The notes beneath the pieces are model-generated. The model had not been told where the DNA came from and searched no databases. It saw nothing but the letters and a program-made list of their open reading frames with translations. A stretch of 25,761 nt of DNA from positions 1-25,761 of IMG/VR virus record IMGVR_UViG_3300048124_000032. The stretch is one strand, 5' to 3'. The position numbers were made by a program, and so were the translations under genes. Below are positions 3,613 through 25,116 of the stretch, piece after piece. This DNA is from a virus. Position 1 is the stretch's first letter. Every line of letters starts with the position of its first letter.

Positions 3613-4109
3613 TACAGTTTATCTTTTATCTTACGTTTAACTTTCTGATAGGTATTGTAAAGGCTTCTGTACTCTATGTTGGTTTCCCTAGATAGTGCAG
3701 ATATATTGTTAGTGTCCTGTACAAGTTCAAATACCTTTTTGTCGTACCAATGCATCTCGTTTAGTGCTTCATTGACCTTATCAAAGGCTTCTTCAAATAT
3801 CTTTTCATCTTCTAACTCTACCTTTGTCTTTTCTTCTATTAGGTATTTTATGTAATCGTCTGTTAGGTCTACAACTTGTGTACGCTGCTCCTTACGACAT
3901 AAATCTAAAAACATACTACGAAGCACCTTATAAATGTAAAAGTCGTTTATATCGTCTTTATATGATATATCTATTCCGTTCTGTATAAGCACTAATAGTT
4001 TTAAATACATCTCTTGTACCAAGTCCTCGCTAGTGTCAGGGTTGCACCCCCAACTACGGCAGTAGCTTATCCATTTATTGTGTTTGCTTGTTAGTATGTC
4101 GGTTATCAA
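3612..4109 (-). CDS. phage RNA polymerase sigma-like factor, 165 aa
   Basis: A small sigma-70/ECF-like protein. Residues about 5-75 match region 2: SEDLVQEMYLKL (27-38) corresponds to the helix that binds core polymerase, followed by the YIYKVLRSMFLDLCRKEQR helix used for promoter -10 recognition. After an acidic linker (95-115), residues about 128-165 form a region 4-type helix-turn-helix (NISALSRETNIEYRSLYNTY, then a basic KVKRKIKDKL tail). It would redirect host RNA polymerase to phage promoters, plausibly the late genes with their shared start-site sequence. It could instead be a late-transcription regulator of the ArpU/RinA kind. ATGA overlap with the methyltransferase gene upstream. Confidence 0.68.
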   Translation of the reverse strand: MITDILTSKHNKWISYCRSWGCNPDTSEDLVQEMYLKLLVLIQNGIDISYKDDINDFYIYKVLRSMFLDLCRKEQRTQVVDLTDDYIKYLIEEKTKVELEDEKIFEEAFDKVNEALNEMHWYDKKVFELVQDTNNISALSRETNIEYRSLYNTYQKVKRKIKDKL

Positions 4110-6292: not shown

Positions 6293-6407
6293 TTGTCATT
6301 ATTTGTTGTGTAAGTATCTCTATTTTTGCTTCAAGCATCTCTACTTTTTTTCGTAATGCTTCGGCTTCTGCTTCTCGTAACCGTAATAAATCCTCGTTAT
6401 ATGTCAT
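6276..6407 (-). CDS. small coiled-coil leader protein of the replication operon, 43 aa
   Basis: The ATG at 6407 lies 4 bases after a TAGCTTTG box, so it is the first gene of the operon and probably translated from a leaderless mRNA. The product is a single charged helix (LREAEAEALRKKVEMLEAK) with regular leucine/alanine spacing, a likely coiled coil. Its last 17 bases overlap the start of the OB-like gene, suggesting translational coupling. No recognised family. Confidence 0.65.
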   Translation of the reverse strand: MTYNEDLLRLREAEAEALRKKVEMLEAKIEILTQQIMTNEIYE

Positions 6408-6411
6408 AAGG

Positions 6412-6442
6412 CAAAGCTACAAAAAATATTTTAATAAAAAAC
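6412..6442 (-). promoter_or_regulatory. Bacteroidota-type promoter, replication operon, probably leaderless
   Basis: On the minus strand TAGCTTTG (6419-6412) fits the TAnnTTTG box of the Bacteroidota housekeeping sigma factor. A T-rich GTTT lies 19 bases upstream at the -33 position, which is weak. Transcription normally starts 4-7 bases after the box, which places it at or next to the ATG at 6407. Confidence 0.65.
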
Positions 6443-7250: not shown

Positions 7251-7459
7251 TTGTCCATAGCTTGTAATAAAGACTTACCAACAGGCTCATTGATGGTCTG
7301 TATTGCTTTATATATTTTTTTTGACATACGCTTTACTTCTTGCTTCTCGGTCTTTGTACTGTCTGTACCTAAATTTGTGTACATATTGCAATCTAATTCT
7401 AGTAACTTGTCTATCTTCTGATTGTCTGTTATTTGTTCTGCTAAAATGTTCTCTATCAT
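7247..7459 (-). CDS. hypothetical protein, 70 aa, first gene of the NinG block
   Basis: The ATG at 7459 lies 4 bases from a TATCTTTG box, so it is promoter-proximal and likely leaderless. The product is polar and helical (NQKIDKLLELDCNMYTNLGT, then a lysine-rich KTEKQEVKRMSKKIYKAIQT). No motif recognised. A DNA-binding or regulatory role is possible from its basic centre and first position. Confidence 0.65.
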   Translation of the reverse strand: MIENILAEQITDNQKIDKLLELDCNMYTNLGTDSTKTEKQEVKRMSKKIYKAIQTINEPVGKSLLQAMDK

Positions 7460-7463
7460 ATGC

Positions 7464-7495
7464 CAAAGATAAGCCTACTTCTAAACATCTAAAAA
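7464..7495 (-). promoter_or_regulatory. Bacteroidota-type promoter, NinG block, probably leaderless
   Basis: TATCTTTG (complement of 7471-7464) matches TAnnTTTG, with TTTT 19 bases upstream. GCAT separates the box from the ATG at 7459. The arrangement TA(k)CTTTG-N4-ATGA is the same as at the replication operon promoter (6412-6419). Confidence 0.6.
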
Positions 7496-7656
7496 TATAG
7501 TTTTTAACACATATATAGTAACTATTATATAGTAGTTTTTATTTATAGTTATATGCTATTTATAGTAGATGTTATATAGTAGTTATATGTTATATACTTG
7601 TTAATACTATATATCAATATTATATATAACTATATATATATATATATAACTATATA
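7496..7656. repeat. very A+T-rich repeat tract, possible origin or control region
   Basis: A 160-base tract of nearly pure A/T between the holin stop and the next promoter. The 13-mer TTATATAGTAGTT occurs at 7525-7537 and 7572-7584, a related TTTATAGTAG at about 7559-7568, and a (TA)n run at about 7630-7645. TTTATAGTTATATG on the plus strand resembles the late start-site element. No open frame or GC hairpin. It would melt easily, which suits a replication origin or a transcription control region. Confidence 0.6.
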
Positions 7657-12154: not shown

Positions 12155-13963
12155 CTAATTTTTAAATCCCATTTTATTCCAATAAGCAGCAGTATAGCCT
12201 TTATACTTCATATTTCTTGGCGCAACAGGTACTTTCTGTGCGTTAGTTTCAGGCTTAAATCCTTCTTTCCTCGCCTTTGTTGTGCTAATTACATCTCCTA
12301 AACTTTTACTGCCATCTTTTTTAGCATATATTCTTCGTGTCCACCTATGCGAACATCTTGCACCGCCTTTGTAAAGCCATATTGAATATGTGGTTTTTCC
12401 TTTGCCTGCTAAATTAGGATTTACAGCTTTATCTCCCATATCAGTAATATCTTCTTTACGATACACCTTTTTAGCACTTACCATTTTCTTACAAAATTCT
12501 CTTGAACTTGTTGTATCATCAGTCGGGTATCCATCTTTATAAGCATCATACATATATCTTACTAAATATGTAATATCTTCTTTACCTTCTTTTCTACCTT
12601 TACCATCTTGTTCGCTTTCTCGATATGGCTTGGCACTACCTGTACTTGCAAGATTTGTCTGCTCGTTTAACTCTTTAATTTTTTGGTTAAGGTCATCATC
12701 ATTGTCATAATCTACTTCCCTTGTATCTATAAGTTCATAGTTTTTTAATAGTTCTTCTTCATCTTGTCCTAAATCAATAAGTGCATCGGCAATCTCTGTG
12801 TCTACAAACTTATCCACATCACTTGCTAACTTTACACCTGTTTCTTCTTCTTGTGTTTCGTCATCAATAAGTTCTTTGTCAATATCTATAAACTCTAAAG
12901 GTTGTAGTGTCTTGAAATACAGGTTAAGAGATATATCGTTGTATGCTAGTATTTTGTCAAACGCTTCTATAAGTAAGTTCTGAAAAGGCTTAATAACCAA
13001 GTTCATCATTAGCTTTGTAGCTGTTTCTAACTCCTCTGCGTTGTTTCCAAGCCCTGTGTTGTCTTTAATACCTAAAAGCATAGGAGACACTACCCTGTGT
13101 GCTACAAGTATCTTACGGCTGCTCTCATCGCTTAAAAACTGATACTGATTATGTGCATCACTTAATTGTACAGGGTCTATTGTGGCTGCTGTTTCAGGGC
13201 TGTCGTTAAAACTTAAAATAAACTTACCTGCATTACTACTACCTGAAAACTTATCATAGATACGTCTTTCTATTTGTTCTCTTTCTTCTGCACTAGGAGT
13301 ACCTGAATTAAAGTTAATAAGCATACTAGGAGATAATCCTGATTGTATGTTATTTATATGAAAGTTAGATATTTCTTCTTCTAGGTCTGCATACTGCAAC
13401 CCACCTTGATAGTCAGGTGTAGCATAGTACTTGTATCCTGCTCTGTAAGGCTTAACGTAAACAATTTCGATAGCTTCATTACTCATACCAAAAGCAGGTA
13501 TACGCTTGACTTGGTTAATACGATTGTATTTAGCCCAATCACTAGAATAGTAATATGCTTCTATTTCTCCTTTGTCGTTGCACTTTTCAGCAGCTAGTTG
13601 TTCAACAGGTATATGCTCAACCCTTGCTATCTTTTTTCTGTCTTTACTATAAATTACCTGCATACTACATTGACCAAACAATTTAAGGTCTGCACATAGT
13701 TTACGTGTACAATCTTTGTGTAGTAGTGTAATGGCTTGTGCGTAGGCATCAGGTTTTGTATTGCTGTCAGTAGCATCTAAACCTTTACCGTATATCATCT
13801 CGCTTATACCGTTTATGACAGCGTTGTTTGTAGGACTACCGTTGTAGCGGTCTATAAGGTACTGAAAGTAAGAGTTTTTATCTCCGTATGTTACAAAAGC
13901 CTTATTCTTCTTTTCTTCAATAGTAGGGCTTACATAGTTAGATAATGTTAATGCGTGTATCAT
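12155..13963 (-). CDS. portal protein with C-terminal extension
   Basis: 602 residues. Residues about 1-400 have portal features: the opening about a structured ring (YFQYLIDRYNGSPTNNAVIN), LCADLKLFGQCSMQVIYSKD, IPVEQLAAEKCNDKGEIEAY, LISFN-type strand FILSFNDSPETAATI, and the crown-helix motif HRVVSPMLLGIKDNTGLGNN typical of SPP1/HK97-like portals. About 405-435 is acidic. Residues about 455-602 form an extra domain with paired C/H residues (EFCKKMVSAKKVYRKEDI, GGARCSHRWTRRIYAKKDG) seen, from memory, in portals of Bacteroidota phages, with unknown function. The portal is the DNA entry channel of the capsid. It is ATGA-coupled to the upstream beta-rich gene. Confidence 0.85.
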   Translation of the reverse strand: MIHALTLSNYVSPTIEEKKNKAFVTYGDKNSYFQYLIDRYNGSPTNNAVINGISEMIYGKGLDATDSNTKPDAYAQAITLLHKDCTRKLCADLKLFGQCSMQVIYSKDRKKIARVEHIPVEQLAAEKCNDKGEIEAYYYSSDWAKYNRINQVKRIPAFGMSNEAIEIVYVKPYRAGYKYYATPDYQGGLQYADLEEEISNFHINNIQSGLSPSMLINFNSGTPSAEEREQIERRIYDKFSGSSNAGKFILSFNDSPETAATIDPVQLSDAHNQYQFLSDESSRKILVAHRVVSPMLLGIKDNTGLGNNAEELETATKLMMNLVIKPFQNLLIEAFDKILAYNDISLNLYFKTLQPLEFIDIDKELIDDETQEEETGVKLASDVDKFVDTEIADALIDLGQDEEELLKNYELIDTREVDYDNDDDLNQKIKELNEQTNLASTGSAKPYRESEQDGKGRKEGKEDITYLVRYMYDAYKDGYPTDDTTSSREFCKKMVSAKKVYRKEDITDMGDKAVNPNLAGKGKTTYSIWLYKGGARCSHRWTRRIYAKKDGSKSLGDVISTTKARKEGFKPETNAQKVPVAPRNMKYKGYTAAYWNKMGFKN

Positions 13964-14325
13964 AGTACTATATAATCGTTATCGTGTGTATCGTTTGTAT
14001 CGTAAACATTCTTATTTACATTGTACCTGCTTTGTGTTACAGGTGTCTGTGCTGTACAGAACAATTTATCTCTATAAACTATTGTAGTGCCATTTAAAAC
14101 TTCTAGTGTGTAATAGTGTCCTTCTCTAAATGGTGCGTTGCTGCTGCCAAATGTCATAGTAGCTGTTAGAAAGTTTTCGTTGCTATCAACAATAGTAGAT
14201 GCTGTAATTGTTTCTGACTTGTTAGTTTGTTCATCAGTAACAGTATATGTGAGCGTTTGAGTAACATACTCTGCTCTTGGTATATACTTAAATGTTTGTG
14301 TTTGCGATACTGATACAATCTTCAT
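13960..14325 (-). CDS. beta-rich structural protein, 121 aa
   Basis: The ATG at 14325 is chosen because GTTATACTTAT directly precedes it, the late start-site element; an in-frame TTG at 14340 is less likely. The product alternates strands (QTLTYTVTDEQTNKSETITA, FLTATMTFG, YYTLEVLNGTTIVYRDKLFC) like an immunoglobulin-type or tail/decoration domain. Its N-rich tail (NKNVYDTNDTHDNDYIVL) may be flexible. Lying after the tube gene and before the portal, it is probably virion-associated; no family assigned. Confidence 0.6.
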   Translation of the reverse strand: MKIVSVSQTQTFKYIPRAEYVTQTLTYTVTDEQTNKSETITASTIVDSNENFLTATMTFGSSNAPFREGHYYTLEVLNGTTIVYRDKLFCTAQTPVTQSRYNVNKNVYDTNDTHDNDYIVL

Positions 14326-14337
14326 ATAAGTATAACG
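14323..14337 (-). promoter_or_regulatory. late start-site element GTTATACTTATATG
   Basis: CGTTATACTTATATG ends in the start codon of the beta-rich gene. It lies about 22 bases after the T-run of the 14360-14390 terminator, so a new transcript must begin here or nearby if that terminator works. Same block at 16576, 18059 and 24914. Confidence 0.55.
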
Positions 14338-14359
14338 CAAAAAAGCGAGAATTTGTAAT

Positions 14360-14390
14360 AAAAAAAAGGAGGGCTTTTACACCCCCCTCT
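14360..14390 (-). terminator. Rho-independent terminator after tail-tube gene
   Basis: On the minus strand GAGGG (14389-14385) pairs with CCCTC (14373-14369) around an 11-base loop, followed by eight T (complement of 14367-14360). Confidence 0.75.
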
Positions 14391-14439
14391 ATCATAATCA
14401 AAACAAAACTATACTCTATGCAAATATATAAAAAATATA

Positions 14440-14979
14440 TTAAGCAGGAGTAATAGGTGTAGTAGCACTTTCGTCAGGTGCTGTTGCAAAGAATGGTGGA
14501 TTAACCTCACTAGCTACTGCTGTAAGTGTAAAGCCTTGTAAATCTCCTGCTGCTGCTCCTGTTACAATAGTACCGCCTGTAACCTCTGCACCGTTGTCTT
14601 TTCCTATTAGTAAGTACTTTGTAGTACCTGTACCATCAGGATATAGTTCAACGACATAGTGCGCTCTACCTCTGTTTAGAAGTTTTATTTCTTCTTGTGT
14701 TGCAACATCTAGATTTTGAAAAGTAATATTTAGTGTACTTTCATAGAATGTCGTACCATTTTCTCTGCTTGACGTTACGCTTGTCTCTAAAGATGTTTGA
14801 CCACCTTTTACTTCGAACTTGAAAAATTCAGCACTTGCATCAGTTGGTAGTGTTACCGTTCCTGATGATGGGCTTAACGCTGCTACTACTGCGCTATAAT
14901 CAAGTATGTATACATTTTTGATACCTGCATAAGCTGCCTTACAGCCTATACCTCTACCTTTTGTTATTGCACAACTCAT
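14440..14979 (-). CDS. putative major tail-tube protein, 179 aa
   Basis: MSCAITKGRGIGCKAAYAGI is a glycine-rich N-terminal arm. The middle is beta-rich (AEFFKFEVKGGQTSLETSVT, TTFYESTLNITFQNLDVATQ), followed by EEIKLLNRGRAHYVVELYP and a loop KYLLIGKDNGAEVTGGTIVT. This strand-helix-strand layout is characteristic of phage tail-tube/Hcp-like proteins. It ends with a low-complexity T/P/A tail. The gene is isolated between two terminators, like the highly expressed capsid gene just upstream, as expected for a protein needed in many copies. Confidence 0.65.
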   Translation of the reverse strand: MSCAITKGRGIGCKAAYAGIKNVYILDYSAVVAALSPSSGTVTLPTDASAEFFKFEVKGGQTSLETSVTSSRENGTTFYESTLNITFQNLDVATQEEIKLLNRGRAHYVVELYPDGTGTTKYLLIGKDNGAEVTGGTIVTGAAAGDLQGFTLTAVASEVNPPFFATAPDESATTPITPA

Positions 14980-14994
14980 ATTTATTTATTTATT

Positions 14995-15024
14995 AAAAAA
15001 GGGCAGGTAGGATATTCCTAGCCC
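14995..15024 (-). terminator. terminator after major capsid gene
   Basis: The minus strand reads GGGC-TAGGA-ATA-TCCTA-CCT-GCCC and then six T (complement of 15000-14995). The stem TAGGA/TCCTA is extended by GGGC/GCCC with a 3-base bulge. It lies 16 bases before the tube gene ATG, so it may attenuate rather than fully stop transcription. Confidence 0.7.
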
Positions 15025-15046
15025 ACCCCTTTTATGTTGGTTAATA

Positions 15047-15967
15047 TTATGAGTAAAGAACGATATCGCCTCTTACTCCGTATTGTACACCTGCTGTGTA
15101 ACGCATCACAACTCTTACGTTTTGTGAACCATCAAGGTCAGCCATATCAATAACTTTAACTTCGTTACGGTCATCTAATAGACCTGTACCAAAGAATAGG
15201 TTGCTTTTTTGAGCAGCTACTGCTGTGTTATCAGCAAGTCCTTTAGCAACAACTAGGTTGATGCCTTCAAAAGTAAGCTGACCACCGTTGTACCATTGCG
15301 AACCTTTGTTATCTGTACCTGCACCTCCAATAGTAGCAACAAATCCGCCTAAAGAACGTACATACGCTCTAGCAATGTTTGAAGATACATATAGGTTAAG
15401 GTCTTCTTTTCCGTATACAGTTGTAGGAATAGCATCTACAATAGCACCTAATTGAGCTACTACGTTTGTGCTATCAATAGCAACAGCAGTTACATCAGCA
15501 CCACCGTCAGCAGTTAAAAGTGTATCAAAGCCGTCAAAAGAACCTTCTCCTGTGCTACCTGACCAAATAGAAGTTTCAGTTGCGTTTGCAACTTCAGCAG
15601 CTACTTGTGCGATAACGAAGTCAGAGAATAAAGGTGGCAATTCATCAAAAGCACTAAAGCCCATTTGAGCAGCTTCCCAATCTGCGTGCAATTCTTTCTT
15701 ACAGATTTGTAAGTTTACTTGCAATTCAGCAGGAGTAAGTACTTTTTCAGTTAGTGTCATTGTTGAAGTAGAACTATCGAAATCACAGTCAGCAGAGCGG
15801 ACAAGACTTCCAAAAGAACCTACTTTCATAGCAGCTTTATACTTTACGTTTGGTAAAATAGTAACAGTTCCGCTATCTAGTGTATCAGCAGACAAAAGAG
15901 CAGCAGCAAGATATTTTCCTGCAAACTCTCCTGCGTAACTTGAACTTGTAATAGTTGGGTTTGGCAT
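15047..15967 (-). CDS. major capsid protein, HK97 fold
   Basis: 306 residues. The N-terminus (MPNPTITSSSYAGEFAGKYL) is an arm rather than a long delta domain, so scaffolding comes from the separate acidic protein upstream. Conserved-looking parts are the E-loop region about 48-75 (VKYKAAMKVGSFGSLVRSAD), TEKVLTPAELQVNLQICKKE (about 73-92), the spine helix FSDFVIAQVAAEVANATETS, the A-domain DLNLYVSSNIARAYVRSLGG and a closing MRYTAGVQYGVRGDIVLYS. It builds the icosahedral shell. ATTAAATAAAATG is a typical Bacteroidota A-rich start context. A terminator follows it. Confidence 0.82.
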   Translation of the reverse strand: MPNPTITSSSYAGEFAGKYLAAALLSADTLDSGTVTILPNVKYKAAMKVGSFGSLVRSADCDFDSSTSTMTLTEKVLTPAELQVNLQICKKELHADWEAAQMGFSAFDELPPLFSDFVIAQVAAEVANATETSIWSGSTGEGSFDGFDTLLTADGGADVTAVAIDSTNVVAQLGAIVDAIPTTVYGKEDLNLYVSSNIARAYVRSLGGFVATIGGAGTDNKGSQWYNGGQLTFEGINLVVAKGLADNTAVAAQKSNLFFGTGLLDDRNEVKVIDMADLDGSQNVRVVMRYTAGVQYGVRGDIVLYS

Positions 15968-15978
15968 TTTATTTAATT

Positions 15979-16578
15979 TTAATTGTTAATTTTAGACATT
16001 ACTTTATCGAGCGTTGTTTGCTTTCTGTTTTGCGCAAACTTTACGCCAATATTGTTAGTTTTTTGTTCAGGGTTATGAGCAATAGGCTCGGCAGCAGGTT
16101 CAGACAATTCCTCTTTTACTTCTTTCGGTAATTCCTCTGATAACTCTACTTCTGCTTCTTCAACTACTTCTTCACTCATTTCTTCTTTCTTCATATCTTC
16201 AATCATAGCTTTGATTTCTGATACTGCTTCTGCTAGTTCTTCTTTAGTAACATAGCCTAATTCTTCTTCCGCTTCTACTTCTTCTTCAGCTTCTTCTTCT
16301 AGGTCTTTAATTTCAGCAATAATGCCTTCTTCTGCTACTACTAGCATCTTACCATCTTCCATAGTGTAATCGCCAACAGGCAATGCTACTTTGTCATCTT
16401 CGGTAATTATAAATATTTCCTTTCCTGCTTCAAACGCTTCTGCTTCTAGTACAGTACCGTTCTCTAGCTTTGCAGTTGCTAGTTCTACCTTCTCTTGGGC
16501 TTCAACATCATTCACAATGTCAGTAGTATCTTCGCCTAGATAGGTTTTAATCTTGTTTAACATTTCGGTTGCTTTCAT
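15979..16578 (-). CDS. acidic capsid scaffold protein, 199 aa
   Basis: The N-terminal part contains a small beta unit (about 40-90: EAGKEIFIITEDDKVALPVG, then DYTMEDGKMLVVAEEGIIAE). A very acidic helical stretch follows (about 90-165; runs such as EEEAEEEVEAEEELG), then a basic C-terminal helix FAQNRKQTTLDKVMSKI. A long acidic helix ending in a short basic capsid-binding hook is the usual form of phage scaffolds. Gene order protease-scaffold-capsid supports this. The GTTATAGTTATATG element precedes the ATG. Confidence 0.75.
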   Translation of the reverse strand: MKATEMLNKIKTYLGEDTTDIVNDVEAQEKVELATAKLENGTVLEAEAFEAGKEIFIITEDDKVALPVGDYTMEDGKMLVVAEEGIIAEIKDLEEEAEEEVEAEEELGYVTKEELAEAVSEIKAMIEDMKKEEMSEEVVEEAEVELSEELPKEVKEELSEPAAEPIAHNPEQKTNNIGVKFAQNRKQTTLDKVMSKINN

Positions 16579-16590
16579 ATAACTATAACT
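16576..16590 (-). promoter_or_regulatory. late start-site element GTTATAGTTATATG
   Basis: AGTTATAGTTATATG directly forms the scaffold gene start. The 36-base gap upstream of it is A/T-only-like and carries no gene. It shares the sequence with 14323, 18059 and 24914. Confidence 0.55.
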
Positions 16591-16614
16591 ATTTATTTAA
16601 CTTATTTTACATTT

Positions 16615-16752
16615 TTAAATTTTACCAATGCCTTGATTGATTAGTTTACCTTTACAGCATTTAGTACTGTAAGTGTCTTTGTCAGCACATAAACATCCGC
16701 GTTTACTGCTTTTAGGGCTTGTGTGTGATGGTGTCAAAAATCTCTTTAACAT
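16615..16752 (-). CDS. small Cys-rich protein, 45 aa
   Basis: The ATG at 16752 overlaps the previous stop by 7 bases. The basic N-terminus (LKRFLTPSHTSPKSSKRG) is followed by CLCADKDTYSTKCCKGKL and a QGIGKI end. The C-x-C...C-C pattern could hold a metal or a disulphide. From memory, small proteins with this CLC...CC...GIG signature recur in structural regions of Bacteroidota phages and prophages; function unknown. Confidence 0.65.
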   Translation of the reverse strand: MLKRFLTPSHTSPKSSKRGCLCADKDTYSTKCCKGKLINQGIGKI

Positions 16753-16883
16753 TTGCCTTGTCCTTTATATTTTTTCTTATAGTTCTTACTGCCCTTTGTA
16801 CTACTCATTTTAGTTTTAGCGTGTACACCCTTTCTTTTTACTTTAGGTTTTACTATATGCGCTACTTCAATTCTTTTAGCCAT
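16746..16883 (-). CDS. small very basic protein, 45 aa
   Basis: TAATG overlap with the protease gene. It has about 16 Lys/Arg in 45 residues (VKPKVKRKGVHAKTKMSSTK, then GSKNYKKKYKGQGKC). The GVHAKT...SKNYKK.Y.GQG pattern is, from memory, common in tiny phage genes of this host group. A nucleic-acid-binding or packaging-associated peptide fits the charge. Confidence 0.65.
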   Translation of the reverse strand: MAKRIEVAHIVKPKVKRKGVHAKTKMSSTKGSKNYKKKYKGQGKC

Positions 16884-18061
16884 TACTTAATAGGTATACA
16901 ATTAGGTACTAACTTACCATCCTTCTCTTTCATACCGTATTGTCTATATCCTGCTGTACAAGGCTTTTCTAATTTGTGTTGCTCACAAGGCATAAACCAA
17001 GTTTTACCCTCATACTCGTGTTCGTGGTAACTATCGCATCCTATATCCTGTGCTGCTTTTATTGCTAGTTCTTTAGTTGCGTAAGCTAGTCTATCGTCTA
17101 TAATAGCCATACTGTCGCTCACTACTTCACTTGCCAACTCTAATACTCCTAATTCTTTTAGTTTGCTTTCTGCCCATCTCTTGGCAGCCTTACCACCCCA
17201 CAACAAGTAGGATATAGTACCACAGGCTTTAGTATCGCTTTCATCGTAATTTACCTCTGCTCTTGACAAGTAGGAGTACATACGTTTTATAGTGCTTTCG
17301 CTAATTGGTTTGCCTTGTGCTAGTTGTTGCGCTCGTATCTTACCTACGTCAGTTGCGCATTTGTTGTTTATTTCTTTGTTTAGGTCTATGCCTCTTTGTG
17401 CGTTATTCTTTACAGCATCAGGATAATCAGAGTAGCTTTCTAGTTCTTCTTTCTTGCCATCCTTATAGCGTTTGTCATCTCTTACTATTCTACGTATATA
17501 AGACAGCATCTCCTCTGCTTCTTCTTCTTCAAAGTCATTTAAAGGCTCTTTAGGTCTTTCCATCTTGTCAATAAAGTACCCCTCAATACTAAAACCTTTT
17601 ACTTTACCTGTCTTTACATAGTCATTCCAAACTTCATCGTTGTTTACTTTGACTACACCCATCCAAGTACCCACAGGCACGTTTAAGCCATACTTCCTTG
17701 ACTTGTCGTGTGTTTCATCTTCTACTAGCCAACTCTCTACTAGCGTAAGCCCATTTAGGCTGTGTTGGTGTTCTAGTGTGCTGTTGTTCTGATTGCCCTT
17801 CATCAGGTACATTTCAGCAGCCTTACGGATAGTATCTTTAGAAAAATAAATATAATACTCATCTTCTCCCTTACGTCTGTATATAGGTTTGTTAGGAATA
17901 AGCAATGCACCTACTAATAGTTGTTTGTCTATTTGTGCTAGTTGTACTTCTTCGTTTTTTAGTGCAATAAAATCTTCTTCAATAGCAGGGTTTTCTACAA
18001 TAGAGATAGCCTCTATACCCTCTACACTATTTTCGTCTAAAATAAGTTCGACTATCCTCAT
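16883..18061 (-). CDS. XkdF-like prohead protease fused to two extra modules
   Basis: 392 residues in three parts. Residues 1-165 match the phage XkdF-type putative serine protease: EAISIVENPAIEEDFIAL, LLVGALLIPNKPIYR, STLEHQHSLNG with H98/H100, and KGFSIEGYF with S158. The spacing fits the herpesvirus-assemblin-like His-Ser pair. Residues about 211-295 (YPDAVKNNAQRGIDLNKEIN, CATDVGKIRAQQLAQGKPIS, ACGTISYLLWGGKAAKRWAE) form a separate module that recurs, from memory, in many phage structural proteins. Residues about 338-390 are Cys/His-rich (GCDSYHEHEYEGKTWFMPCE, KPCTAGYRQYGM, VPNC). It would mature scaffold and capsid proteins. Preceded by the late start-site element. Confidence 0.78.
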   Translation of the reverse strand: MRIVELILDENSVEGIEAISIVENPAIEEDFIALKNEEVQLAQIDKQLLVGALLIPNKPIYRRKGEDEYYIYFSKDTIRKAAEMYLMKGNQNNSTLEHQHSLNGLTLVESWLVEDETHDKSRKYGLNVPVGTWMGVVKVNNDEVWNDYVKTGKVKGFSIEGYFIDKMERPKEPLNDFEEEEAEEMLSYIRRIVRDDKRYKDGKKEELESYSDYPDAVKNNAQRGIDLNKEINNKCATDVGKIRAQQLAQGKPISESTIKRMYSYLSRAEVNYDESDTKACGTISYLLWGGKAAKRWAESKLKELGVLELASEVVSDSMAIIDDRLAYATKELAIKAAQDIGCDSYHEHEYEGKTWFMPCEQHKLEKPCTAGYRQYGMKEKDGKLVPNCIPIK

Positions 18062-18073
18062 ATAACTATAACG
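18059..18073 (-). promoter_or_regulatory. late start-site element GTTATAGTTATATG
   Basis: CGTTATAGTTATATG forms the start of the protease gene, in a 30-base intergenic gap after the tape-measure stop. Identical core to the scaffold copy at 16576. Confidence 0.55.
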
Positions 18074-18091
18074 TTTATTTTTTATATTTTA

Positions 18092-19825
18092 CTATATTGA
18101 TGCGCCCTCTACTATATTACGCTCTAAACTTTGTGCAGTTGTTACGTCTTGTGATGTTACAAACGCTTTAATAGGTCTTTCGTTTTGACCTGCTAGGGTT
18201 TCTGCTAGTTGGTTTCCTGCTCCTGCGCCTACTATGTTAAATGCAGGTGGTGCAGATGTGGGTGCGCTTGGTCTTGCTATTGATGGTGTACTACCACCGC
18301 CACCGCCTAAACTACTAGCTACTGACTTACTTTTACCTACTGCACTAGATATTGCACCTATAATTCCAACAGCCTGTAAGGCATATCCAATAAGCATAGG
18401 TATATTTTGTGGAAAACCTATTTTAGCTGTTTGTGCTGTACCTTCTGCTACTGCTGCTGTTGAACGTGCTGCTACTAAACTAGAAAATGTAATAGTTTTT
18501 TTAGCCTCTCCAATCATCTCCTGTACTGCTAGTAATTGTTTAGCTATAAGGGCTGCTTTACCTGCTGCTGTTTCTGCACCAAACAAACTAATAGCTGCAT
18601 CTACTGCTTGTGCCTTTGATTGTGTAATCATAGCATCTGTTTGTTGCTGACCTGCTACAATACGTGCATCTCTTTCTGTTTTTTCTTTTAGTTGCGTTTC
18701 TTCTCTCTCCTTATCTTCTGCTGCAATCCTATCTTTACGCTCTTTTTCTGCTGCATCTTCTTCTGCTTGTATTGCTTTACGTTCTGTTGCCTGTTCACGT
18801 ATAGCTGTTGTAAGTTCAGCAGTTAATGCTTTTTGTGTTCTTAATCTATTGGTTTCTAAATTTATTACTTGCGCTTTGAGTTGTGCTTCTTCTTCTAAAT
18901 CAGCCTTTGTGGATAGCCCTAGTGCGTTTTCAGCTTGTTTAGCTTCTAGTCGTAATTTAGCAGCTTCAATTTCTTTTTGTGTTATGTCAGCTTCTATTTG
19001 ACCTGCCTCTTTTATTGCCTCTAGTCTTTTCTCTAGCGACACATTTTCTTTATCAGCAGCCTGTTCTCTTAATTCTGCAATCCTTCTATTTGCCTCTGCT
19101 CTTTCTACTAGTAACTCCCTATCTACCTTGTCTGCTTTTGCTCGTTGGTCTGCAATCTTACCTGCTATTCTTCCTTCTTCTACGGTAGCTTGTATAAACT
19201 CGTTTGTTTTGTCTATTGCTTGTTGTGTTTTATCAACAATATCTTCAACTCCTAAAGTAACTTTAGCAACAGCGTTTGTAGCAGTTTTACCTGCTTCTTT
19301 AAACTTACCTTCAAATAGTAATCCTATTGCTTTGCCTAATTGTGGCACAAGTTCTAATAAACCTTCAAACCTGTTTACAATATTGTCTTTAATTAAGTTA
19401 GCAAAGTTTGTTAAGGCTTGTTTAGGGTTTTCAAAAGCACCTATAATTAAATCTCCAAGCCCTGCAATGGCATCCATAAACTGCCCTGTTACAGCACCAA
19501 TCACACCCATAAGTTTAGCAAACTTGTTTTGCCCTTCTTCACTTCTTGTAAAGGCTTGACCTACTGCTGTGATGGCTATAATTAATGCGCCTATGCCTGT
19601 TGCTGCAATAGCAAACTTTAAGGACTTAAAACCCTTTATAGCAGTACCTACTGACTTTGTAATACCTTTAAAACCACTAATAGCACCACCTGACATTTTA
19701 TCAAGTGAGTTTGTTGTATCTGCACTAGACTTGTTTACGTCTTTTATACTTTCATCTACTTTGTCAATACCTTTAACAGCATCTGTAGTGTCTGCTTGTA
19801 CCTGTATTACTATTTTTTCTGCCAT
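18092..19825 (-). CDS. tail tape measure protein, 577 aa
   Basis: A short N-terminal beta segment (EKIVIQVQADTTDAVKGIDK) precedes helical repeats. Hydrophobic segments follow at about 70-92 (LKFAIAATGIGALIIAITAV) and about 105-130. A very long charged coiled coil spans about 205-400 (LVERAEANRRIAELREQAAD and similar). A second hydrophobic region lies at about 465-500 (IPMLIGYALQAVGIIGAISS), then a GGGGGS/P linker and C-terminus. This is the standard tape-measure design. At about 0.15 nm per residue it predicts a tail near 85 nm. Unusually, it follows rather than precedes the tail-tip genes in reading order. Its start lies inside the end of the 48-aa gene. Confidence 0.9.
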   Translation of the reverse strand: MAEKIVIQVQADTTDAVKGIDKVDESIKDVNKSSADTTNSLDKMSGGAISGFKGITKSVGTAIKGFKSLKFAIAATGIGALIIAITAVGQAFTRSEEGQNKFAKLMGVIGAVTGQFMDAIAGLGDLIIGAFENPKQALTNFANLIKDNIVNRFEGLLELVPQLGKAIGLLFEGKFKEAGKTATNAVAKVTLGVEDIVDKTQQAIDKTNEFIQATVEEGRIAGKIADQRAKADKVDRELLVERAEANRRIAELREQAADKENVSLEKRLEAIKEAGQIEADITQKEIEAAKLRLEAKQAENALGLSTKADLEEEAQLKAQVINLETNRLRTQKALTAELTTAIREQATERKAIQAEEDAAEKERKDRIAAEDKEREETQLKEKTERDARIVAGQQQTDAMITQSKAQAVDAAISLFGAETAAGKAALIAKQLLAVQEMIGEAKKTITFSSLVAARSTAAVAEGTAQTAKIGFPQNIPMLIGYALQAVGIIGAISSAVGKSKSVASSLGGGGGSTPSIARPSAPTSAPPAFNIVGAGAGNQLAETLAGQNERPIKAFVTSQDVTTAQSLERNIVEGASI

Positions 19826-19956
19826 TTCGCTTCTCTTTTAATTTTTTTGCCTGCACCCATTAAACCACTTGGTAAATGATACTTACCTTGTGCTATACGG
19901 ATGTTCTCTGTTTCTCCTTTTGCTAACTCTAATAAGTCTAGTATATTCTTAATCAT
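19810..19956 (-). CDS. small basic protein upstream of tape measure, 48 aa
   Basis: The ATG at 19956 overlaps the previous stop as ATGA, and its end overlaps the tape-measure start by 16 bases. A helical start (MIKNILDLLELAKGETENIR) is followed by QGKYHLPSGLMGAGKKIKRE. No family known. It may act as a small tail-assembly factor by position. Confidence 0.65.
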   Translation of the reverse strand: MIKNILDLLELAKGETENIRIAQGKYHLPSGLMGAGKKIKREAKWQKK

Positions 19957-22007
19957 AAGTCGTTTAATAGTTCTATGTTGCTTTCTCCTGTTAGTAGGTT
20001 TGTGCTTATGCTGTTTATTTTGTATTGGTTTCCTGCTACTATAAACCTATCCCCTAGACCATAGTTAAGTAAGATACGCATAGGTAAATATGCCTTTAGC
20101 TTTGTTAGTCTTTGCTTGGTGTTAAATACACTTGCTATGTAGTTAGAATAATAAACAGAAAACAATGTGTCTGCAAAATCCGTATCTCCTGACCATTCAC
20201 TTGCTTCCCTATTGAAGTTTAGTTGAAAGTCATTAGTAGCTGAATTGTTGCTTACGCTATTAAAGGGTAGGTTTACTGATGTTAAGTTTTTGTGGCTTGT
20301 AGCTACGTTATCATCGTTTACAGCATCAACAAAAGAGATATCCCCTGTACTAACTAGGATAGGGTAAAACAATAAAGGACTACCTAAATAAGCATTTTGG
20401 CTTTTATCTACGTTATACCCCCATTGTATGTTTAACTGTGAACCATCATCAGCATCATTTAAACGCTCATATAGTAAATGACCAAACGGTAATTCAACCT
20501 TATATAATTGCCCTGCTAATGCTGTTTCTCCTGCATTGTAGGATATCTTACCCCAATCCCTGTTGTTTAGTTCTCCAAACTTATTAGCTAAAAAAGTCTT
20601 TGTGTCTTTAAACTTAAACTCTATTTCTCTATACGGAAGTGCTACATCTACCTTGCTACTATTCACATCTACAAACTCTGTTATGTCGTATGTGTCTGTG
20701 CCTGTATAGAAGTCATCTAATGGCTTTACTTGTATTACACCGTTTACCACAAAGGCAGTAAGATTAAACGTCTTAAATAGCCCTGTAAGAAAGTCTAGTA
20801 TTTTAATATCAGGCATTTGCTTATTTACGTTAAATGTAAATATTGCGGTGGTAGTATAAGTACCTGTTCCTTCTTGAAATTGAACAGCAGGTTCTTGTGG
20901 TTCTTGATATATTAAATCCCAAACGATATTAGAAAATGTAATAGCTTCTGATGCTGTTATAAATACTGTATAATCTCCATCTCCTATTTCAAAATCTCCT
21001 GCATCTCCATCTGCTGTGTGGTTTCCCGTTATGTCTGTTTCATTGTAAATACTTTGACCATCTTTAAATATTTCTACACTATAAGATACCGCACTTGTTG
21101 TGTTTAATTGTAGATGAAATCTTGAATAATAGTTATCAGGAATGCCTAAATCTACTATTAATGTTGTGGCTGTTATTCTCACTAAAGTTGGTGCAGGGAA
21201 GGGTGTAGGTGTCCAACCATCTACTTGTGTTTCAAACAATGCTGTGCTTCCTGATAAATCTTCTACCTTACCACTTTTCCTGTGAAGCCACATAAATAAA
21301 TGGTCAAACTCCTCTAGGCTTGTGTTCTTAAAAAAATCGCTAGAGAAAGATAGACCAAAGTCTGTTTCTATTTGCTCTATAATTTTATTAACTCGTATAG
21401 CGTATTTTAACTCGTTCCACTTTACTCCGTGTACGTGCTGACCACCACCACTATGATAATGTAAATCCCCACTATCAGCTACATCGCTTGCTGTATCGCT
21501 ATCATAAAACAATCTTTGACTGTGAGTTATTAATGGTGCTATAATATGATTGCTACTGCTCTCTGCTGTTGTTAGTTTACTTTCAACTGTTGCTTCATCA
21601 TACGTTAGATTGTATGCCGATAAATCTAGGTCTGATAGTTTCTTTTCTCCTAGTTTGTCTTTAAGGTCTACTATATCTCCAAAGAATGTAATCCTGTATG
21701 TGTGTGCTTTGTTTCCTTTTAAATCAACTCCTTCTAGTTTTATCTTACCTGTTCTAAATGGTATGTTGTTTAGTTCAATAGTAGCTACTACTTTTTTACG
21801 TGCATCAAAACCATTTGTAATATCAAAGTTATAGTAGTGCTTGAATATCTTGTTGTTGGTTTTAGAAGCAGGTACACTAAAAGATTGTGTAAAGGCAGTA
21901 AACACCTTATCAATGTCTTTTACATTTTGGATGCTGTCAGTTATTGTAACACTTTCGTCTTTGAATAACTCAAGCCTTTGCCCTTCTATGTATAGTTGTA
22001 TAATCAC
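19953..22007 (-). CDS. large tail-tip/baseplate-like protein, 684 aa
   Basis: The start is GTG at 22007 (overlap TAGTG with the previous gene). Residues 1-135 (QLYIEGQRLELFKDESVTIT, AFTQSFSVPASKTNNKIF, GKIKLEGVDLKGNKAHTYRI) form a beta-rich domain like those in tail hub proteins. SVPAS followed by a helix-strand unit is frequent in Bacteroidota phage tail proteins. About 260-380 is a beta-sandwich (TTSAVSYSVEIFKDGQSIYN), possibly a carbohydrate-binding insertion. The C-terminal part (DIKILDFLTGLFKTFNLTAF, VKPLDDFYTGTDTYDITEFV, then LGDRFIVAGNQYKINSISTN) looks like a hub/OB-type barrel. A Tal-like role is inferred. Confidence 0.65.
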   Translation of the reverse strand: MIIQLYIEGQRLELFKDESVTITDSIQNVKDIDKVFTAFTQSFSVPASKTNNKIFKHYYNFDITNGFDARKKVVATIELNNIPFRTGKIKLEGVDLKGNKAHTYRITFFGDIVDLKDKLGEKKLSDLDLSAYNLTYDEATVESKLTTAESSSNHIIAPLITHSQRLFYDSDTASDVADSGDLHYHSGGGQHVHGVKWNELKYAIRVNKIIEQIETDFGLSFSSDFFKNTSLEEFDHLFMWLHRKSGKVEDLSGSTALFETQVDGWTPTPFPAPTLVRITATTLIVDLGIPDNYYSRFHLQLNTTSAVSYSVEIFKDGQSIYNETDITGNHTADGDAGDFEIGDGDYTVFITASEAITFSNIVWDLIYQEPQEPAVQFQEGTGTYTTTAIFTFNVNKQMPDIKILDFLTGLFKTFNLTAFVVNGVIQVKPLDDFYTGTDTYDITEFVDVNSSKVDVALPYREIEFKFKDTKTFLANKFGELNNRDWGKISYNAGETALAGQLYKVELPFGHLLYERLNDADDGSQLNIQWGYNVDKSQNAYLGSPLLFYPILVSTGDISFVDAVNDDNVATSHKNLTSVNLPFNSVSNNSATNDFQLNFNREASEWSGDTDFADTLFSVYYSNYIASVFNTKQRLTKLKAYLPMRILLNYGLGDRFIVAGNQYKINSISTNLLTGESNIELLNDL

Positions 22008-23179
22008 TATCTTACTGTGTTTATCTTGTCAAAAGCATAATCAAAGTCTACTGTGTATTGTACAAGTCTATCGTTAAGGCTTGTCTTATATGTTACACTT
22101 TGTGTCTTTGGTATTACTGCTAATACTGTTTCTAGGTTGTTGCTATCAGGAGCAGGATTGTCTAGTCTAGTAAGCCATACTTGCTCTGACATCATAAGCT
22201 GTTTTATTACTTCGTTGTAATCTTCTGATAGATAATTAGTGTTTAGTGTGATGCTTTCTTTTCCTAGTTTGTTGTATTGTGCTACTTGTGGTTTGTAGGT
22301 GTCGTATGTTAGTGTACCAAAGTCTACTGCATTTGCCTTGTAGGTTTCTCCTGTGGTGTTAAGGCTCTCTATGCTTTTAAGGCTAAAGTACATATCCTGT
22401 AATGCGCCAAACTTATTTATGAATGTAACTTTGTAAGGCTCATACTTTGAGCAAGGCTCTGTGCTTATTTTAACGACTTCTGTGCTACTAGCAGAGTTAA
22501 TGTATAGTTCATCTACCAAGCCTATGTCTACGCTGTCTAAAAACGCATCTAAAAGGCTATTGTCCTCTAACGTACCGCTATCCGCTAATACTCTTTCTTT
22601 GTAGCTGTCCGTATTGTCTGCGCCTGATACTGTGATGTATTCTATTTGTCCGTTTGTATTTGTGCTGCTACTTACTGCTTGTACTCGCTTTACTTCTCCT
22701 TTGTATAAAAAAGATACACTACTTGTGTCCTCTGTAAAGACAGGTACTCGTACGTTTTGGTCATCAGGTCTGAATATTTTGTAATTACTTTGTAAGTACG
22801 TTCTGCTTAATTCGGTGTTAATACCATCTTCAAAATACCCATAACCATCAAGGGCTATATAGTCTGTGCTTGTTGTGCCTAAACTAGAACCACCGCCATT
22901 GGTAGCATCAAACATTTCTATATCAGCTTCAACCCATACGGTTTGGCTATCGTACTCCCCATCAAATTCAATGTCTAGGTAATCCCTTACAAGTTCTGCA
23001 ATCTCAAACACAACATAGTTATTGCTGCTTATTTCGTTTTTAGTTATTGTGTATTTTGCTGTTCCCTTGTCTGTTGTGAATGTTCCTGTGTATATGAATA
23101 GTTCCAAAGTAGCTGATGCTAAACTAGCATTACTTGCTTTTATATAATACGGACTTCTTACGTTTATTTTAGTTGCCAC
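22007..23179 (-). CDS. distal tail/baseplate-like protein, 390 aa
   Basis: Beta-rich. The N-terminal domain (INVRSPYYIKASNASLASAT, ELVRDYLDIEFDGEYDSQTV, WVEADIEMFDATNGG) is followed by a middle part with YGYFEDGINTELSRTYLQSN. The C-terminal galectin-like part (KYEPYKVTFINKFGALQDMY, ESITLNTNYLSEDYNEVIKQ, LMMSEQVWLTRLDNPAPDSN) ends in QYTVDFDYAFDKINTVR. The 'FINKFGALQD' strand and the 'LMMSEQVWL' helix resemble tail-tip proteins of flavobacterial phages as I recall them. Likely a Dit-like hub ring, next to the large tip protein. Starts 11 bases inside the preceding gene. Confidence 0.6.
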   Translation of the reverse strand: MATKINVRSPYYIKASNASLASATLELFIYTGTFTTDKGTAKYTITKNEISSNNYVVFEIAELVRDYLDIEFDGEYDSQTVWVEADIEMFDATNGGGSSLGTTSTDYIALDGYGYFEDGINTELSRTYLQSNYKIFRPDDQNVRVPVFTEDTSSVSFLYKGEVKRVQAVSSSTNTNGQIEYITVSGADNTDSYKERVLADSGTLEDNSLLDAFLDSVDIGLVDELYINSASSTEVVKISTEPCSKYEPYKVTFINKFGALQDMYFSLKSIESLNTTGETYKANAVDFGTLTYDTYKPQVAQYNKLGKESITLNTNYLSEDYNEVIKQLMMSEQVWLTRLDNPAPDSNNLETVLAVIPKTQSVTYKTSLNDRLVQYTVDFDYAFDKINTVR

Positions 23180-23735
23180 TTGTTGCTGATGTTAAAAATT
23201 CTTCTAAATCTAATTTATACGCATCTACTAACTCTTTTGGTAGTTTGTCAAATGCTTGTTCGAAACTCTTTGTAAAAAAATTAGTAGGTGTGATACCTCT
23301 GTTGTATATATTCTTTGCTATAACATATCCTAAACTCTGATAGTTACCCTTTGCGTATTTACCATTACTATCTCTAAATCTTATCCTTTTAGCTTTAGCC
23401 CACACACCCATCCTTTTAGCAAACTGTGCGAAAGTACCACTACTGCTGCCTGTACCAAATCTATATGGAGAGTTAGGTGCTTGTTGCCCTGTTTTTTTTG
23501 CATTAGGAGATACCTTACTTGGGTTCTTACCCTTTACACCCTTATCCTGATACATACCATATTCTTCCATAAGGAATTTAAGTATGAACATATTACCTGC
23601 TACTGTTAGGTCAAAATCTAAACTATTGTATAGCTTCTTATTATAATTGCTCTTACCTTTAGTTAAGCGTGTCCTAGATTGCTGTATAACTCTCTTGGCA
23701 AACCCCCTCAATATATCCTCTGTATTGTCTAGCAT
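23169..23735 (-). CDS. putative tail-completion (HK97 gp10-like) protein, 188 aa
   Basis: A basic helical protein. LRGFAKRVIQQSRTRLTKGK opens it, then a strand with MFILKFLMEEYGMYQDKGVK, where a conserved-looking 'YG.YqD.GvkG' turn resembles the gp10/gp64 tail-completion fold. GYVIAKNIYNRGITPTNFFT and SFEQAFDKLP close it, typical for proteins that cap the tail terminator ring. Order after the 155-aa gene and before the tail-tip proteins agrees. Overlaps on both sides (7 and 11 bases). Confidence 0.6.
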   Translation of the reverse strand: MLDNTEDILRGFAKRVIQQSRTRLTKGKSNYNKKLYNSLDFDLTVAGNMFILKFLMEEYGMYQDKGVKGKNPSKVSPNAKKTGQQAPNSPYRFGTGSSSGTFAQFAKRMGVWAKAKRIRFRDSNGKYAKGNYQSLGYVIAKNIYNRGITPTNFFTKSFEQAFDKLPKELVDAYKLDLEEFLTSATSGN

Positions 23736-24196
23736 AGGTATATGTCGTTAGGTATGGTTATGTCAAAGGTTGTAGACCATCCTGCTAATTCGTTCTCAAA
23801 CCTGTCATAGAAAGGCTCACAGCTAGGGTCGCTATCTAAAGAGTACACATCACTAACGTCAGCTTGTCTTAATAAACCAAACAATCTATTTAAAACTGCT
23901 AGTTGTGTGTTAAGCACATCTTGCTCGTTATTGTTACCTATAAATATGTCTGTTGTTTCTTCTTTGCTAAAGTCTACTATATCCATAGCTAGGACTGTGA
24001 TGTTGAACCTAATTACTTGTTCTTGTATGGTTGCGCTGTTTATAATAACGTGCGACAATGGGAATATAGTTTGCTTGGATAAGTCTATCTCTGTTAAGTC
24101 TCCTGTTGTAACTGTATTGACATTTTCATCCAATAGTAGTTGGTCTTTTATAGTTTGCGTGATTAGGTAAAAACCTCTTACTGCTGTATTAGCCAT
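23729..24196 (-). CDS. putative tail terminator / neck protein, 155 aa
   Basis: N-terminal helix LITQTIKDQLLLDENVNTVT, a strand QTIFPLSHVIINSATI, a central strand VIRFNITVLAMDIVDFSKEE, then a helix NNEQDVLNTQLAVLNRLFGL and a closing strand AGWSTTFDITIPNDIYLC. This helix-strand-helix-strand layout with the 'WSTTFDITIPND' end is shared by gpU/gp17-type tail terminators. It starts 8 bases inside the chaperone extension frame. Assignment by fold pattern and position only. Confidence 0.55.
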   Translation of the reverse strand: MANTAVRGFYLITQTIKDQLLLDENVNTVTTGDLTEIDLSKQTIFPLSHVIINSATIQEQVIRFNITVLAMDIVDFSKEETTDIFIGNNNEQDVLNTQLAVLNRLFGLLRQADVSDVYSLDSDPSCEPFYDRFENELAGWSTTFDITIPNDIYLC

Positions 24197-24498
24197 TTCT
24201 TTTAATTCTTTTTGCTTCTAACTCGTTTTTCTCTTTCATAAACTCTAATGCGTATAAACACTCGTGCATATTTAGTTTAGTGATATTTTCAAATCTTGTA
24301 ACGTCTCCTTGAGCCAATCCGAATATTGATTGATACCAACCCCACTTTGCTCCAAAGTTTGCTTCTGTTGAGAGGTCATTTCCTCCTTGAGTGAATAGTC
24401 CATCATAACCTGACACAATTCGCTCCCTAAATTGTAAAAAAAAACAATAGAACCTAGTACAACTCCTAAAGGCATATGCTTGTACTCTAAAGCATCTT
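24189..24498 (-). CDS. overlapping -1 frame of the tail chaperone (GT-like extension)
   Basis: The frame is open from 24498 to 24189 without an ATG; a GTG at 24416 could start a 75-aa protein (GYDGLFTQGGNDLSTEANFG, AKWGWYQSIFGLAQGDVTRF, then NMHECLYALEFMKEKNELEA). The coding look of this part is convincing. It lies in the -1 frame of the chaperone gene and is joined to it by the T-run at 24436-24444. A fusion would be about 242 residues (160 from the first frame, 82 from this one). In lambda-type phages a T domain fused to G is needed for tape-measure assembly. A stand-alone GTG gene is the alternative. Confidence 0.7.
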
Positions 24499-24916
24499 TA
24501 GCTTCGTATGGCTCTATGTTATATAATTTATCGTATTTGCCCTGTACGGGTCTGTAAAGGACTGCCATAGCTTTCTCTATGTTATCCCAATCTCCCAAGT
24601 ATGTATCTATGTCTATGTATTCCCCAAAAGACATATTGTCTAGGTTAGGTATAAAGCCATAGCGTTTACCATCTAGTTTAAACTCTCTTGTTAGTGCAGG
24701 AGTTTCATCAAACATCTTTGTGAGCGTTGCTACTATTGTTTGTATGTCAGCAGCTTTTATGTTTCTTACAACTTTGTCAGGTACATTACAAAATATAGTA
24801 ACCATTTTTAAGGCTACTTGATTTTCAGTTAAGTTTTCAGGTAGCTTTAGATACTGTTGGTATTGCCCTAGTGTTATCTCGTTAAGACTTGTAGGTACGT
24901 TTAATTCATACTTCAT
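24272..24916 (-). CDS. tail assembly chaperone (G-like), 214 aa
   Basis: The ATG at 24916 is preceded by GTTATATTTAT, the late start-site element; an earlier in-frame start at 25012 would cross the terminator and is rejected. The first segment (NVPTSLNEITLGQYQQYLKL) resembles a tail-chaperone opening of Bacteroidota phages as I recall them. It has a mid part TKMFDETPALTREFKLDGKR and YGFIPNLDNMSFGEYIDIDT, and ends with LKETLQDLKISLN. It would bind the tape measure during tail-tube polymerisation. The second frame overlaps its last 54 codons. Confidence 0.68.
   Translation of the reverse strand: MKYELNVPTSLNEITLGQYQQYLKLPENLTENQVALKMVTIFCNVPDKVVRNIKAADIQTIVATLTKMFDETPALTREFKLDGKRYGFIPNLDNMSFGEYIDIDTYLGDWDNIEKAMAVLYRPVQGKYDKLYNIEPYEAKDALEYKHMPLGVVLGSIVFFYNLGSELCQVMMDYSLKEEMTSQQKQTLEQSGVGINQYSDWLKETLQDLKISLN
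24436..24444 (-). promoter_or_regulatory. candidate -1 ribosomal frameshift site (T TTT TTT)
   Basis: The minus strand reads GTT TTT TTT TAC in the chaperone frame: nine T, containing the slippery heptamer T TTT TTT in the correct register. After slipping -1 the ribosome reads TTA CAA TTT AGG GAG into the frame that encodes the T-like extension, with no stop. Confidence 0.65.
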
Positions 24917-24928
24917 ATAAATATAACG
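24914..24928 (-). promoter_or_regulatory. late start-site element GTTATATTTATATG
   Basis: CGTTATATTTATATG forms the start of the chaperone gene, about 26 bases after the T-run of the terminator at 24954-24977, so a transcript start is expected in this interval. Confidence 0.6.
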
Positions 24929-24953
24929 TATATAAAGCAGGTTTTTAGGAAAT

Positions 24954-24977
24954 AAAAAAAGGGCTATAAAAGCCCTC
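24954..24977 (-). terminator. strong Rho-independent terminator of the early small-gene block
   Basis: AGGGCT/AGCCCT stem (24960-24965 with 24971-24976) around a 5-base ATAAA loop; seven T follow on the minus strand (24960-24954). The stop codon of the 50-aa gene (24964-24966) lies inside the stem. Confidence 0.88.
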
Positions 24978-25116
24978 TGTAAAATTCTTGTGTTCTGTGT
25001 AGTAATTCCCACACTTTATAATCCTTGTCTTTAGGATGCCTAGCCTTTACGCTTATCCCTATGTCTGTGTGTATGTGAGTTATTATAACTCCTGTGTGTA
25101 GTTTATGTAGTTTCAT
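24964..25116 (-). CDS. small basic hypothetical protein, 50 aa
   Basis: The ATG at 25116 overlaps the upstream stop as ATGA; a longer in-frame start at 25152 lies inside the previous gene and is less likely. The sequence (MKLHKLHTGVIITHIHTDIG, then ISVKARHPKDKDYKVWELLH) is His/Lys-rich with a beta start. No known family. The coding end enters the terminator stem, so translating ribosomes could affect termination. Confidence 0.6.
   Translation of the reverse strand: MKLHKLHTGVIITHIHTDIGISVKARHPKDKDYKVWELLHRTQEFYRGLL

Follow-up and report, generated by a model that had tools for sequence, protein, structure and literature searches.

It is known that phages of the phiEco32, 7-11 and Kuravirus type encode a sigma factor of the extracytoplasmic function (ECF) family, gp36, that redirects the host RNA polymerase (RNAP) to phage-specific middle/late promoters (PMC4331800, PMC4281155, PMC7881722). 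Here we analyzed the 25,761 nucleotides of IMG/VR virus fragment IMGVR_UViG_3300048124_000032 (the window), in which a short block, GTTATAnTTATATG, ends in the start codon of four genes and very probably serves as the −10 part of a late promoter, recognized by host RNAP with a phage-encoded ECF-like sigma factor, from which leaderless mRNAs would arise. The likeness to the phiEco32-type system lies in a phage sigma of the ECF family and in few copies of a −10-type motif at late operons. Their motif, tAATGTAtA, located 6–8 nt before the start points in enterobacterial podophages, was not found at the late sites of the window, which carry CGTTATA and a −35-like box. Unlike phiEco32, whose gp36 we compared by description only, the bipartite ACAAAA/CGTTATA element abuts the ATG, the hosts are probably Bacteroidetes and the core switches in a lineage-specific manner.

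The late promoters of T4 consist of TATAAATA without a −35 element and need gp33 and gp45. They resemble the present system in using a phage sigma-like factor (gp55) and an A/T-rich −10-type late element, but the phage late sites described here keep a conserved −35-like box. Cellular ECF sigmas, such as SigH of Mycobacterium tuberculosis and SigR of Streptomyces coelicolor, share with the phage sigma the sigma2 plus sigma4 build, (C)GT(T) in the −10 element, the −35/−10 spacing and homologous −10-contacting residues, and the SM6 CGT-box promoters of flavobacteria have a (C)GT(T)-type −10 element too (PMC9723704). Unlike cellular ECF promoters, the late sites carry the box ATACAAAAT and no GGAAC-like −35 motif; as GGAAC is typical of the ECF family but not universal, we call the sigma ECF-like. 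The Bacteroidetes housekeeping promoter (TAnnTTTG) also begins 12 nt before the +1, but the late sites have a core of the CG(T/A)TATA family. In the literature searched, which left subscription journals and preprints mostly outside, no ECF-sigma late-promoter system was reported for Bacteroidetes phages, and the library searched described no flavobacterial phage transcription programme.

A preliminary description of this DNA had reported that four start codons end one common 14-base block, and this was borne out: GTTATANTTATATG matches the window exactly four times, always on the - strand (14323-14336, 16576-16589, 18059-18072 and 24914-24927), and the last three bases of each copy are the ATG of a long open reading frame (ORF; 14325, 16578, 18061 and 24916). 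The same description asked whether the block is as frequent in shuffled sequence; 100 dinucleotide shuffles gave a mean of 0.00 exact matches. When up to three mismatches were allowed we counted 27 matches in the window versus 27.5 by chance, so the signal is carried by the exact copies only. The absence of excess at three mismatches and the A/T-richness of the window are what could be said for chance, or for the recent duplication of a short AT-rich repeat; the empty shuffles and the conservation of the element in distant phages with different flanks led us to reject chance, and the probability left to either origin is negligible. As had been noted, the block differs from the usual TAnnTTTG, which is absent from all four sites. 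A generic sigma-70 promoter scan of the window returned fewer matches than in shuffles and was uninformative.

Next, we compared the homologous starts of all four genes in IMG/VR relatives, which showed the core in place together with a second conserved box upstream. Judged from this comparison, the four copies are the downstream (−10) half of a two-part promoter and not the whole element. The 14-base block held up as a sequence but not in its extent, since it misses the upstream box and the preceding C, which stands before the G of the block in every copy but that of the scaffold gene, where the base is A. The full element consists of a ATACAAAAT-like box, a gap of 12–13 bp and (C)GTTATA, with the first core base 12 nt before the ATG. 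A position-matrix search had been suggested in the preliminary description, and we ran it with a two-block matrix trained on 92 sites, all from outside the window's clade. The matrix comprised the box ATACAAAAT, a gap of 12 (31 sites) or 13 (61 sites) and the core CGTTATA, and on the window it ranked three of the four block sites first to third and the scaffold copy, a C-to-A variant of the core, sixth. The four putative promoters are:

24914..24950, - strand: late promoter of the tail operon (box TCCTAAAAA 24950-24942; core CGTTATA 24928-24922; ATG 24916)
18059..18094, - strand: late promoter of the head-maturation protease (box TAGTAAAAT 18094-18086; core CGTTATA 18073-18067; ATG 18061)
16576..16612, - strand: late promoter of the scaffold-capsid genes (box ATGTAAAAT 16612-16604; core AGTTATA 16590-16584; ATG 16578)
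14323..14359, - strand: late promoter of the beta-rich/portal operon (box ATTACAAAT 14359-14351; core CGTTATA 14337-14331; ATG 14325)

In many marine relatives the four corresponding genes have the element in sense orientation, and a fifth copy is located ahead of the terminase genes. Bipartite sites of each contig's own type, counted over 34 contigs, numbered 163 in the sense and 7 in the antisense orientation, with 5.6 in Markov-shuffled sequence. By sequence comparison, nearly all of it on metagenomic contigs, a large marine group of viruses of Bacteroidetes-type bacteria shares the element. The first core base is mostly 12 nt from the ATG (98 of 113 chaperone sites and 112 of 118 scaffold sites); elsewhere in relatives the distance is 14–16, 23–24 or 33–41 nt, with some chaperone sites at 24 nt and the terminase sites at 33–41 nt. 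The fifth site, which usually has a true leader, precedes a small gene, behind which most contigs have a terminase-large-like ORF containing a Walker A motif.

These distances bear on the other option raised in the preliminary description, a translation-enhancing start context, here understood as a conserved pre-AUG element helping the Shine-Dalgarno-less ribosomes of Bacteroidetes. Such an element would agree with a block that ends in the start codon and with a core that mostly keeps a distance of 12 nt to the ATG, and Bacteroidetes do use sequence upstream of the AUG (A-3, A-6; PMC6847099). However, the copies in the window have no A at −3 and are confined to the first genes of operons, the core covaries with the sigma factor (see below), and the leadered copies of the relatives, in which the same core, with its −35-like box at fixed spacing, lies 14–41 nt from the ATG, already strain this explanation; we regard it as very unlikely. 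A Kozak-like element of fixed position was likewise rejected because the offsets vary while the spacing to the −35-like box does not. As the relatives indicate, the element is not intrinsically tied to the start codon.

Two further features were observed around the fifth unit. In several phages its leader (e.g., G003:15105 and G007:10523) has T-runs behind an inverted repeat (TTGATTAATCAA, TTTGATTAATCAAA). The contigs G015 and G019, both of the CTA type, have at the corresponding site, before the tail operon, a ParB/methyltransferase-like gene (MQLINIQEVRPNENNPRF...) in place of the small terminase-like gene.

The core also changes in concert. The three bases before TATA are CGT, CGA, CTA or TTA depending on the lineage (cores CGTTATA, CGATATA, CTATATA and TTATATA), and they agree across the sites of a contig in 120 of 126 contigs, a figure inflated by relatedness among contigs, compared with 33 on average and 46 at most when core types were shuffled among contigs within each gene (AGT counted as CGT). 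Given this inflation, more can be learned from lineages in which the core has switched. In contig G037, CGATATA occupies the five expected late-operon positions and one additional site, and bipartite CGTTATA is absent; the phages with the sigmas nearest to its own (G004 and G008) use CGTTATA. We also observed a mixed promoter set in two CGA-type phages (L085 and L086), which have CTATATA at the scaffold site only.

The candidate reader of this element is encoded on the same strand:

3612..4109, - strand: phage ECF-like sigma factor, 165 aa, sigma2 plus sigma4, with region 2.4 helix YIYKVLRSMFLDLCRKEQR containing S65, D69 and R72

Its product matched phrog_1740 (RNA polymerase sigma factor) with an E-value of 3.3e-6 and Pfam Sigma70_r2 with 9.4e-5, and its 165 residues fall within the size of ECF sigmas, which have sigma2 and sigma4 only (~150–200 aa). 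An AlphaFold2 model, for which two rows of the alignment were left out, reached a mean predicted local distance difference test (pLDDT) score of 84 and consists of two helical modules linked by a long low-confidence helix; its best Foldseek matches in the PDB are ECF sigmas (SigE/SigL/SigH; E 6e-4 to 1e-2, template modeling (TM) score ~0.4–0.6). A homologue was present in all 27 tested contigs of at least 20 kb, and the 7 contigs lacking one are fragments of 12–19 kb. At the sensitivity of that search, 84,980 cellular genomes yielded no close relative of the phage sigma. No candidate anti-sigma factor was identified, and no systematic search for one was made.

To relate the sigma to the core we used 70 non-redundant phages having both the sigma and the tail-operon site. 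D at residue 69 accompanied G as the second core base in 46 of 46 phages, and N, A, S or Q accompanied T in 24 of 24. The first core base was C with R at residue 72 (49 phages, plus one exception with L) and T or A with K (20). As for the third core base, A accompanied G at residue 65 (29 phages) and T accompanied any other residue (40), apart from one exception. The two-part build, its placement, the strand bias, the concerted variation among lineages and the covariation with the sigma can be read directly from the contigs.

The element might instead be a late promoter of an alternative (ECF) sigma of the host, or the operator of another phage late activator, with the phage sigma-like gene serving something else. 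However, the core type follows the phage lineage and region 2.4 of the phage sigma, which would not be expected of a site read by a host factor, the sigma gene is in every tested contig of at least 20 kb, and the site of an activator would not need the ECF −35/−10 spacing. We consider both versions unlikely.

Several results weigh against a promoter read by the phage sigma and giving leaderless mRNAs. The Pfam match of the sigma, at 22.6 bits, is just below the curated cutoff of 24 bits, its sequence kinship to solved ECF sigmas is weak (E 0.1–0.9) and the predicted TM score (pTM) of the model is 0.44. The tree needs only 5 core-type changes, so the match between residues and bases rests on few independent events. 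The exception to the rule for the third base is G004, and in L453 a region 2.4 core resembling the one in a CGT phage goes together with CGA, making this rule incomplete. Prediction of the core type from sigma residues was correct in 25 of 38 further loci, a result not used as evidence, as many of the loci are near-copies of training loci and there was no permuted baseline. Finally, only a minority of flavobacterial mRNAs are leaderless (5.5% in Flavobacterium psychrophilum; PMC9723704).

Two variations of the sigma gene were also observed. In the window's clade, residues 145–154 of sigma4 read IEYRSLYNT versus ISYYSLYNT in most relatives, and the protease and scaffold boxes (18061 and 16578) have GTAAAA versus (A/G)CAAAA; a possible reading is −35 covariation, seen in one lineage only. 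In some close relatives (G014:C1:17263-17475 and G025:C1:18828-19040) a second ORF of 199 aa, not seen in the window, directly follows the sigma gene and matches its N-terminal part (E ~3.5e-17), possibly as a paralogous sigma-region-2 protein.

Profile alignment to SigR (1h3l) and SigE placed Y58, S65 and D69 of the phage sigma at W81, N88 and N92 of SigH, whose numbering was transferred by position from the SigR alignment. Of these SigH residues, N88 touches T-10 and N92 the −11 pair in the open complex, where the −10 element is G-11 T-10 T-9 and the −35 element spans −34 to −29 (PMC6411747). On this scale the phage element has its C at −12, its G at −11 and its upstream box at ~−34 to −26. 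Together, the core CGTTATA, the covariation in the 70 phages and the alignment of the residues to SigH contacts point indirectly to a (C)GT-type −10 element read by region 2.4. The fourth core base is T in all core types, as expected for a flipped T-9. Aligned with the SigH promoter, with the core C at −12, the element puts the +1 on the A of the ATG, and the late mRNAs should therefore be leaderless; for the tail promoter the predicted +1 is the A of the ATG at 24916.

A host-type box occupies the same register ahead of two other ORFs of the window, where TAnnTTTG is followed by four nucleotides and the ATG:

7459..7471, - strand: probable early promoter, host-type box TATCTTTG at 7471-7464, 4 nt, ATG; −12 register
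6407..6419, - strand: probable early promoter, host-type box TAGCTTTG at 6419-6412, 4 nt, ATG; −12 register

The housekeeping TAnnTTTG box of the host lies at −12 to −5 relative to the +1 (PMC9723704). Across contigs, TAnnTTTG with the 12-nt spacing occurred 14 times in sense and once in antisense, many of the 14 being copies from the window's clade. The shared register counts against the possibility that the promoter is correct but starts some bases off the A of the ATG, with short leaders, or has its +1 at the ATG in some copies only, as does the −12 distance from core to ATG, kept at four unrelated genes and equal to the ECF distance from core to +1. Leadered copies do exist (the terminase sites, and the chaperone sites 24 nt from the core), and we give this possibility some weight while thinking it improbable. 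A loose scan for a +1 purine at the leadered copies was noisy and was not used.

The closest cultured phages are P12024L and P12024S of Nonlabens (Inhavirus), which resemble the window in protease, capsid, portal and a sigma-like gp35; P12024L, in which the −12 elements were read, is homologous to the window phage in the first three. A tblastn search with the window sigma in cultured phages gave no match; gp35 was recognized through its annotation and its Pfam match only (Sigma70_r2, E 1.4e-5 in P12024L). Seven sites before late genes of P12024L (179, 3031, 5412, 22090, 24771, 26011 and 27612; looser at 179 and 22090) have ACAAA followed by a CGTTAATA-like sequence with C at −12, unlike the window, where the core is CGTTATA. 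The P12024L sigma is ~27% identical to that of the window over 64 residues and otherwise very divergent; in its helix, YVWRTIYNLYMDELRRTKK, the three positions are occupied by N, D and R, which is what the rule predicts for CGT. The relationship to P12024 and the TAnnTTTG boxes indicate that the host probably belongs to the Bacteroidetes; no prophage-based assignment was found, only generic ECF matches in Streptomyces and Williamsia.

The genes behind the four copies are:

24272..24916, - strand: first gene of the tail transcription unit, phrog_32199 of unknown function, labeled tail chaperone in the preliminary description
16883..18061, - strand: head-maturation protease, XkdF-like (PF14550, E 2.5e-15)
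15979..16578, - strand: scaffold-like acidic protein, ahead of the probable major capsid protein (15047-15967)
13960..14325, - strand: beta-rich small protein, ahead of the portal gene (12155-13963)

The copies at 24916 and 14325 had been described as lying after terminators, and hairpins were indeed found there, with stem ends ~28–30 nt and T-runs ~20–25 nt upstream of the blocks:

24958..24978, - strand: terminator-like hairpin directly upstream of the tail promoter
14365..14390, - strand: terminator-like hairpin directly upstream of the beta/portal promoter

The late promoter, possibly read by the sigma and giving leaderless or nearly leaderless mRNAs, that had been proposed for this block is supported by its bipartite build, the 163:7 strand bias, its presence at all five late operons of relatives, the concerted changes and the region 2.4 covariation; from these we infer binding by the sigma, the exact start site, leaderlessness and late timing. 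In the proposed mechanism, host RNAP carrying the phage ECF-like sigma (3612-4109) would read ATACAAAAT (~−34 to −26), 12–13 bp and C(−12)GTTATA, with the upstream box falling to sigma region 4 and the first core bases to the helix of region 2.4 (S65, D69, R72). Transcription would start at the A of the ATG and give leaderless mRNAs for the tail, protease, scaffold/capsid and portal operons, and the fifth copy of the relatives would serve the terminase operon, usually with a short leader. The hairpins may shield the units behind the two copies from upstream read-through.

A broader proposal, to which we give slightly less than even credence, is that a widespread family of marine Bacteroidetes phages uses leaderless mRNA for most late and probably some early operons, through host- and phage-type promoters exactly 12 nt before the AUG, and that the sigma and its ~5 promoters have been rewritten together several times. 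If true, it would be a natural record of an ECF sigma changing its −10 specificity through residues 69 and 72. For an abundant marine group, the comparison provides a specific and testable model in which a phage sigma is matched to the sequence that it would recognize and to the operons that it would serve, and the phages themselves supply naturally occurring covariation for the study of ECF −10 recognition. Structural genes would be expressed from leaderless mRNAs in a phylum in which ribosomes do without Shine-Dalgarno pairing, and late operons in unannotated metagenomic contigs would become predictable from sequence.

Finally, near-matches to the block, which are not bipartite sites before genes, were seen at 7490–7660, a very A/T-rich intergenic stretch before the early genes; it has repeated ATAGTTATATA-like units on both strands and is possibly an origin or a regulatory region.

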